Shown here: piece after piece, positions 52,898 to 53,615 of the stretch | Layout of the letters: every line of letters begins with the position of its first letter | Numbering within the stretch: position 1 is the stretch's first letter | NCBI GenBank assembly: GCA_026014685.1 | Contig: JAOZHW010000003.1 | Coordinates: 99,995 to 163,994 of the forward strand | Direction of reading: 5' to 3' | Origin: Candidatus Bathyarchaeota archaeon | Lineage (GTDB): Archaea > Thermoproteota > Bathyarchaeia > Bathyarchaeales > Bathycorpusculaceae | DNA length: 64,000 bases | Made by a program: the position numbers and the translations under genes | The notes under the pieces: model-generated | Database searches by the model: none | Told to the model about the DNA's origin: nothing | The model's input: the letters and a program-made list of their open reading frames with translations, nothing else

Positions 52898-53266
52898 TTA
52901 GATTGCAGTGGGTTCTCTGTTGTCTGTTTTGAGAACCTTTTCGATGAGGTGCATAAAGAACTCCTGCGCCTGAACCTCGTTGACGCGTTCCAAATAGACA
53001 GATACCATGGCGATTTTGCCTTTCTTTGCAGCCACGTACTCAGCGAACATTCGTGCAGAGATTATGTGTTTATCTCCGACTAGAACCTGTGAAGTGACGG
53101 AGCCGACTAAGTCGCGGGGTTTAGGTACCGCGATAGCCATGGTGCCGAGTTTATCCTCTTTCTCGCTTAGCATAATCATGATGCTGTTTTTTGCTTCAAC
53201 GTAGACTGCCAAAAAGCGTGTGTCTTGCTGCTGTATTTCTTCTTTTATGACGTTGGCGCGTTCCAA
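52898..53266 (-). CDS. Proteasome assembly chaperone 4-like small protein
   Basis: The 122-residue protein shows VYVEAKNSIMIMLSEKEDK, LGTMAIAVP and a later KKGKIAMVSVYL, the pattern of archaeal PAC4-type proteins (strand, glycine turn, AxP, then a C-terminal helix and strand). The role would be assembly of the 20S proteasome, but this rests on pattern recognition alone. It starts at TTG behind GAGGG. Its long leader contains the structured element at 53319-53425. Confidence 0.55.
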   Translation of the reverse strand: MERANVIKEEIQQQDTRFLAVYVEAKNSIMIMLSEKEDKLGTMAIAVPKPRDLVGSVTSQVLVGDKHIISARMFAEYVAAKKGKIAMVSVYLERVNEVQAQEFFMHLIEKVLKTDNREPTAI

Positions 53267-53318
53267 TGTTGCTCCCTCTCGCAGGTTTATTGCGGCGTTC
53301 GCCCTTAAAAAGACTTTA

Positions 53319-53425
53319 CAATCAGCATTCTCCTATGTAGGAGATTGGACTGGGCTTTGGATTTTTCCGGAGAAAGGAAAAACTGAAGATCCCATAGCTA
53401 TTTTCAGCGCCAAAGCCCAGCCCTC
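53319..53425 (-). ncRNA. Candidate structured leader RNA or small RNA
   Basis: Read on the minus strand, the 11-bp arms CTGGGCTTTGG (53410-53420) and CCAAAGCCCAG (53350-53360) enclose two hairpins, CTGAA/TTCAG and TTTTTCC/GGAAAAA. A third dyad, TCTCCTA-CA-TAGGAGA (53329-53344), follows. A TATA box (TTATAA, 53450-53455) lies about 27 nt before the first arm and a T5 tract (53307-53311) after the last. The layout fits a transcribed three-way junction, as a leader of the PAC4-like gene or a separate sRNA. Confidence 0.4.
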
Positions 53426-53449
53426 ACATACATACTTAGTGATTTGCAC

Positions 53450-53455
53450 TTATAA
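53450..53455 (-). promoter_or_regulatory. TATA box for the structured leader/PAC4-like gene
   Basis: TTATAA within AGTATTATAAGTGC (minus strand) places a start site near 53425, directly before the outer stem of the structured element. Confidence 0.45.
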
Positions 53456-53464
53456 TACTTTGCA

Positions 53465-53552
53465 GTTGCTTCTGGTTTTTCTATTTTAATTAATCTTGAC
53501 CTAATAATTTTTTAACAAAAATACTTGTATTGCTGTCGTTGCTTCTGGTTTT
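53465..53552. repeat. 15-bp direct repeat pair upstream of the promoter
   Basis: GTTGCTTCTGGTTTT occurs at 53465-53479 and again at 53538-53552, 73 bp apart (about seven helical turns). The first copy lies just upstream of the minus-strand TATA box, so the pair may be a regulator site. The remaining gap to 53775 is AT-rich without a gene. Confidence 0.45.
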
Positions 53553-53615
53553 GGCTAAGAATTCCTAAAACCATTAAAAAAAATTCATGAACTAAAAGAA
53601 ATTAAAAACCAACAC

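Follow-up and report, generated by a model that had tools for sequence, protein, structure and literature searches.

The window, that is, the whole stretch of 64,000 nucleotides that was analyzed, carries on its minus strand a structured element that lies between a divergent Lrp-type gene on one side and a PAC4-like gene on the other, and not behind a surface-protein gene (Table 1). The outer stem, GGGCUGGGCUUUGG / CCAAAGCCCAGUCC, has 14 pairs, one of them G·U, and encloses two predicted hairpins; the 11 perfect pairs around two hairpins noticed in an earlier sequence-only reading of this DNA are thus found again within a longer stem. Folding of 211 nt gives -57.9 kcal/mol (z = -2.85), with 1 of 200 dinucleotide shuffles equally good, and in the minimum-energy model hairpin 1 is in competition with other small folds. 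The TATA box proposed ahead of the stem is borne out, as TATTATAAG is matched by TATATAAG at an equal distance before the stem in the nearest of the relatives compared (genome G018). Further upstream, AAAACCAGAAGCAAC occurs twice, at about 53475 and 53545 (within 53440-53555, minus strand), as if the promoter region of the RNA had been duplicated, and a TATA-like or AT-rich stretch follows each occurrence within about 30 nt.

Table 1. Positions of the element and its neighboring features in the window
Feature	Positions	Strand	Basis or remark
Structured RNA element, putative divergent free-standing family member	53347..53424	minus	Fold, comparison with G018, covariance models
P1 stem, 5' strand GGGCUGGGCUUUGG	53410..53423	minus	Family P1 (GGG + GCUG + GGCUUUGG) minus the 3-nt bulge AGW
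P1 stem, 3' strand CCAAAGCCCAGUCC	53347..53360	minus	Family strand CCAGAGCC-yCAGC-AAACCC minus the AAA bulge
Hairpin 1, GCUGAA / UUCAGU around AAUAGCUAUGGGAUC	53382..53408	minus	Kept in G018
Hairpin 2 (UUUUUCC/GGAAAAA), with the anti-Shine-Dalgarno motif in its loop	53362..53382	minus	Predicted; not conserved in G018
Anti-Shine-Dalgarno motif CCUUUCUCC	53369..53377	minus	Invariant in G018; matches family CUUUUCUCC
TATA box of the RNA, TATTATAAG	53449..53457	minus	Ends 25 nt before the stem
7+2+7 dyad TCTCCTA-CA-TAGGAGA	53329..53344	minus	Judged to lie outside the RNA; absent in G018
Core promoter of the PAC4-like gene, GTCTTTTTAAG (the T5 tract of the sequence-only reading)	53304..53314	minus	Conserved across the genus
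PAC4-like gene, TTG start	52898..53266	minus	Pfam PF16093, E 1.2e-4, below the curated cut-off; a neighbor, not shown as a target

The sequence of the element is absent from 39 of 40 relatives of the source genome (G000), and G018 is the only one that carries it. Over the 78-nt element, 71 of 76 aligned bases (93%) are identical between the two genomes, whereas the flanking spacers on both sides reach about 69% over aligned bases (53-54% with gaps counted); the PAC4 coding sequence stands at 89%. Alignment of the orthologous leaders upholds the pairs of the stem and of the 5' hairpin (hairpin 1), where the G-U at the base is replaced by G-C and the loop is longer in G018, but not those of the second hairpin or of the 7+2+7 dyad. 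The dyad, previously counted as part of the structure, does exist in the window, and its absence from G018 speaks against a functional part in the RNA. AAAAUAGCUAUGG and CCUUUCUCC are invariant between the two sequences. This conservation argues against decay of the window copy, two sequences being no proof of selection. In a wider search, the exact motif of the window copy gave 9 genome matches, near chance expectation, of which only the Bathyarchaeota contig is genuine, and no match in viral contigs.

The T5 tract of the sequence-only reading belongs to CTTTTTAAG, the TATA box and conserved core promoter of the PAC4-like gene. Orthologues throughout the genus carry this promoter about 50 nt ahead of their start codon, even those that have no structure upstream. 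Because this promoter lies between the structure and the gene, and is conserved also where the structure is missing, two readings fall: that of a leader riboswitch of the PAC4-like, GNAT, and sua5 genes, and that of an intrinsic terminator composed of the nonconserved dyad and the T5 tract. Most PAC4 orthologues in the genus lack the structure; in one (L042, genome G023), the place that the RNA has in the window is taken by another long hairpin, the 15-bp stem of which is GCGACCTCCGAAAAC / GTTTTCGGAGGTTGC. A search of Rfam at a permissive threshold returned no riboswitch and no family of this kind, only weak matches elsewhere or matches far below the gathering score. H/ACA, C/D box, kink-turn, and integron attC elements were considered by eye and set aside, with no box motifs or GA pairs seen at the bulges.

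A dispersed RNA family in Bathyarchaeia

A covariance model built from the window copy and the G018 copy (R1) matched one further site in the source genome, C7:228584 (E 0.0023), the stem of which differs from that of the window by a compensatory change, GGGCUCUGG/CCAGAGCCC, and which has in common with the window copy CUUUCUCC and an A-run before the 3' strand. When the DNA of this site was used as a query, many copies were found in 13 of the 32 genomes of the genus, and a second model (R2), based on 32 copies from the genus, matches 19 of the 32. In the source genome R2 gives 13 matches at E <= 0.1, among them the window copy at E 0.09, so that the reciprocal R1 and R2 matches link the window copy to the family modestly; R2 also recovers the G018 copy of the element at E 0.0086. 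Across the class, R2 finds matches in 45 of 257 genomes, from 13 genera and two families, with up to 37 copies per genome (two single-contig genomes carry 37 and 16). These data define a dispersed, multi-copy structured RNA family in Bathyarchaeia that is absent from Rfam. A full-text literature search, with preprints and most subscription papers outside its coverage, found no description of such a family. A typical copy lies on the same contig 6.8 kb left of the start of the window (G000:C3:93075-93180), behind the gene for a 903-aa PQQ-propeller surface protein, and is far nearer the consensus than the window copy.

The family consensus, of about 100 nt, reads GGGGCUGAGwrGGCUcUGG, hairpin(s), CUUUUCUCCUAAA, CCAGAGCCyCAGCAAACCC. 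The stem (P1) is composed of three parts, GGG/CCC, GCUG/CAGC, and rGGCUCUGG/CCAGAGCCy, which are separated by 3-nt bulges (AGW in the 5' strand, AAA in the 3' strand), and the 3' end, GCAAACC, is nearly invariant across the family. In an unguided MAFFT alignment of the 32 copies, 93.6% of P1 cells are paired, and sliding the partner lowers this to 53% or less. Changes on both sides are seen in 16 of 21 pairs over 84 distinct aligned copies (112 cells versus 36 in shuffles), counts that lean towards the model, as the copies were fitted to it. P1 holds 51 G·U against 28 A·C cells, and the strand as read is therefore favored. A pseudoknot between the leader GGAGAA and UUCUCC has no support from the energies, as a copy's own pairing (-9.09) is no better than shuffled pairing (-9.31). 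Of 80 leaders, 29 contain the Shine-Dalgarno-like GGAGA, which in the gene-linked copies precedes the stem by roughly 8-20 nt, and no covariation was found in its pairing with the anti-Shine-Dalgarno segment.

The P1 of the window copy consists of the same pairs as the family P1 (GGG/GCUG/GGCUyUGG and partners) with both 3-nt bulges deleted, and the exposed anti-Shine-Dalgarno segment of the family, CUUUyCUCC, is present as CCUUUCUCC. The anti-start segment is missing; by inspection, the window copy has CAG, as part of hairpin 1, where the family has CAU. With its own TATA box, its conservation in G018 against diverged flanks, and its homology to a large covarying family, the suggestion of a small RNA in the sequence-only reading gains in weight, and we regard the window copy as a candidate small RNA, derived and free-standing, that would be transcribed from a promoter of its own.

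Of 83 distinct copies examined, 64 lie just behind a co-directional surface-protein gene, mostly 40-75 nt past the stop codon, and 19 were not classed as gene-linked by an automatic rule that counts the doubtful match L192 as linked and L131 and L155 as orphans, though a surface-type gene precedes both, and with some other copies truncated or misfiled. The gene that follows on the 3' side may be on either strand. The preceding genes encode secreted, anchored proteins of about 820-960 aa (typically about 850 aa) with matches to PQQ_2 propeller and Ig-like domains, which end, as a rule, in a transmembrane segment followed by RKRP, RRK, or similar. Nearly all gene-linked copies are preceded, at a distance of 30-40 nt, by a pyrimidine-rich T run, and there is no such peak after the RNA. 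As paralogues without the RNA still have this run, it is probably the terminator of the surface-protein gene, of the kind recognized by aCPSF1/FttA (PMC8716108). By comparison of positions, 14 of 15 paralogues in G036 are followed directly by a copy, compared with only about 10 of 26 in the source genome.

Several orphan copies have, by eye, TATA-like boxes 25-60 nt upstream, like the window copy. The orphans L169 and L210 (perhaps also L212), from two genomes, stand beside a divergent, apparently shared gene of about 290 aa and have a TATA-like box; it is possible that they represent a conserved stand-alone RNA gene. L128 (G018:C18) and L189 (G000:C15:54720) have in common a doubled anti-Shine-Dalgarno segment, UUUCUCCUAUUUUCUCCUUAAA, and a GCGCUGA start, and are perhaps an orthologous free-standing sub-type.

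Complementarity to surface-protein start sites

The conserved single-stranded segment of the family is antisense to the region from the Shine-Dalgarno sequence to the start codon in the surface-protein family. Start regions such as TTTAAGGAGAAAAGAAAAAGTG and TTTTAGGAGAAAAGAAAAATG in the source genome, TTAGGAGAGAAAAAA in G089, and TTGAAGGAATGAA or GAAGGTGAAAAAATG in G036 are matched by the RNA segments UUUUUCUUUUCUCCUUAA, UUUCUUUCUCUCCUAA, and UUUUUUCAUUCCUUCAA or UUUUUUCACCUUCAA, respectively. In the three genera, mean duplex energies for surface-protein versus ordinary starts are -21.1/-14.2 (p = 1e-6), -20.7/-15.9 (p = 0.002), and -19.2/-14.3 (p = 0.0006), with small sets of ordinary genes (45, 13, and 11; few outside the source genome), mechanical gene calls, and, for both gene sets alike, a choice of start codons that favored Shine-Dalgarno sites. 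The energies carry a purine/pyrimidine bias, shuffled segments still giving -9 to -13 in a run with shorter leaders. The longest perfect matches are 20, 15, and 22 nt, whereas ordinary genes give no more than 11, 10, and 9 nt, and the 16S anti-Shine-Dalgarno sequence gives the opposite trend between surface-protein and ordinary genes.

The signal peaks in one RNA segment of 18-24 nt and, on the mRNA, around positions -18 to +11 relative to the start codon; the anti-Shine-Dalgarno part is predicted to be unpaired (P 0.78-0.98). In a matrix of the three genera the diagonal is best, the RNAs of each genome fitting the start sites of that genome best. Within the genus of the window, in a comparison to which three further genomes were added after the idea had been formed, the RNA also tracks codons 2-4, with ATGCAAATGC in G005 and ATGCAAAATCG in G012, where CAAATGCAAAATCGT is a perfect match of 15 nt; the energies do not separate G005, G024, and the source genome from one another.

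In the three genera the family pairs better with the ribosome-binding sites of surface-protein genes than with those of ordinary genes, which does not hold for the window copy alone. The window copy has modest duplex energies with surface-protein start sites; its best match to a surface protein in its own genome is -24.4 kcal/mol and ordinary genes reach -25.0, and the exact complement of its anti-Shine-Dalgarno segment, GGAGAAAGGRAAA, has no occurrence in G000 or G018 outside the element. PAC4 was rejected as a target, its values of -16.6 and -19.2 kcal/mol lying within the range of ordinary genes.

Alternative explanations, proposed role, and known systems

The position of the element 3' of a gene, on the same strand and at a fairly constant distance, together with its complementarity to start sites within that gene's own protein family, could suggest action in cis, where the 3' element pairs with the start site of its own mRNA and closes the mRNA on itself. 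The pairings found make this unlikely. In none of the three genomes are own pairs better than random pairs (own versus all pair means of -16.8/-21.1, -17.3/-20.7, and -18.3/-19.2; permutation p = 0.92, 0.59, and 0.84), all 13 own pairs of G000 and G089 fall into the weaker half of the ranking, and orphan copies have no gene in cis. In G000, moreover, paralogues that lack the RNA have start sites that are better targets than the start sites of RNA-bearing paralogues (-22.4 versus -18.8 kcal/mol, p = 0.02), and G089 has a like trend (p = 0.07); G036, with only one gene lacking the RNA, is uninformative here. Own pairs are thus not favored, and the best targets are often RNA-lacking paralogues, which argues for action in trans on sibling genes.

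A structured 3' element with another job, such as stability of the mRNA 3' end, protein binding, or processing after the U-tract, would fit the strong covarying stem, the conserved bulges AGW and AAA, the nearly invariant GCAAACC end, and the U-tract that lies 30-40 nt ahead of almost every gene-linked copy. The antisense segment would then be secondary, which leaves unexplained why it follows, from lineage to lineage, the start sites of one and the same protein family, and we regard this explanation as rather unlikely, if slightly less so than pairing in cis. Less probable still, and in our view quite improbable, is a DNA element and not an RNA, either an inverted copy of the start region that serves recombination among surface genes or a mobile repeat: there are many copies, they are linked to a paralogous gene family, and the segment repeats the 5' end of these genes in inverted orientation, yet the stem has compensatory changes and G-U pairs, the best complement is restricted to the start region, and the copies are diverged and not identical. 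The leader riboswitch of the PAC4-like, GNAT, and sua5 genes retains in its favor that the structure is upstream of PAC4 on the same strand in both G000 and G018; besides the separate PAC4 promoter, the structure-free orthologues, and the lack of an Rfam match, its homologues sit behind surface-protein genes with the next gene on either strand, and we give this reading hardly any credence.

The reading that we favor, with moderate confidence and from sequence comparison, is that the family would consist of trans-acting antisense RNAs that mask start sites, with the window element as a divergent, free-standing copy. From the computed family, structure, genomic linkage, complementarity, and lineage-wise covariation, we infer transcription, pairing in the cell, and repression as follows. 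Typical members are encoded just downstream of the putative U-tract terminator of genes for large, anchored PQQ-propeller surface proteins, and the RNA could be made by read-through or 3'-end processing or, for orphans such as the window copy, from its own promoter. The bulged, covarying stem is predicted to hold out the hairpins and a single-stranded reverse complement of the start site, comprising the Shine-Dalgarno sequence, spacer, start codon, and first codons. This segment may then pair in trans with the mRNAs of paralogous surface proteins and block ribosome binding, so that expression of one surface protein would lower the others. It could be speculated, as a tentative extension that we hold to be less probable than masking as such, that this forms an RNA code over tens of surface proteins, in which an RNA-bearing gene silences its siblings and spares itself, leading to a hierarchy or switching of the surface. 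If the masking reading is true, these archaea would have a widespread and hitherto undescribed RNA family with targets readable from sequence, in which an antisense segment co-evolves with start sites throughout a family of paralogous surface proteins, and this would point to RNA-based coordination of surface composition in abundant, hardly cultured sediment archaea.

Small RNAs derived from 3' untranslated regions in bacteria are encoded behind a gene and mask the Shine-Dalgarno sites of other mRNAs. The RNA of Bathyarchaeia resembles them in being encoded behind a gene and in its predicted action on the start sites of other mRNAs; unlike them, it is archaeal and located after, not before, the U-tract terminator, with no sign of a terminator hairpin. 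The U-tract that separates the stop codon from the RNA is of the type found in terminators that depend on aCPSF1/FttA, where cleavage could release the RNA, whereas a structured RNA 25-35 nt downstream is no part of the mechanism as described (PMC8716108). Archaeal precedents for start-site masking are sRNA162, sRNA154, and sRNA41 of Methanosarcina mazei (PMC3510493, PMC5867862), to which no family link in sequence or structure was found. In these, as predicted here, the RNA uses an unpaired loop or linker to cover the ribosome-binding site of an mRNA encoded in trans. The M. mazei RNAs have been described singly and with few targets, whereas a genome of Bathyarchaeia can carry tens of copies, which are linked to a single family of paralogous surface proteins, and the anti-start segment appears to co-evolve with this family.
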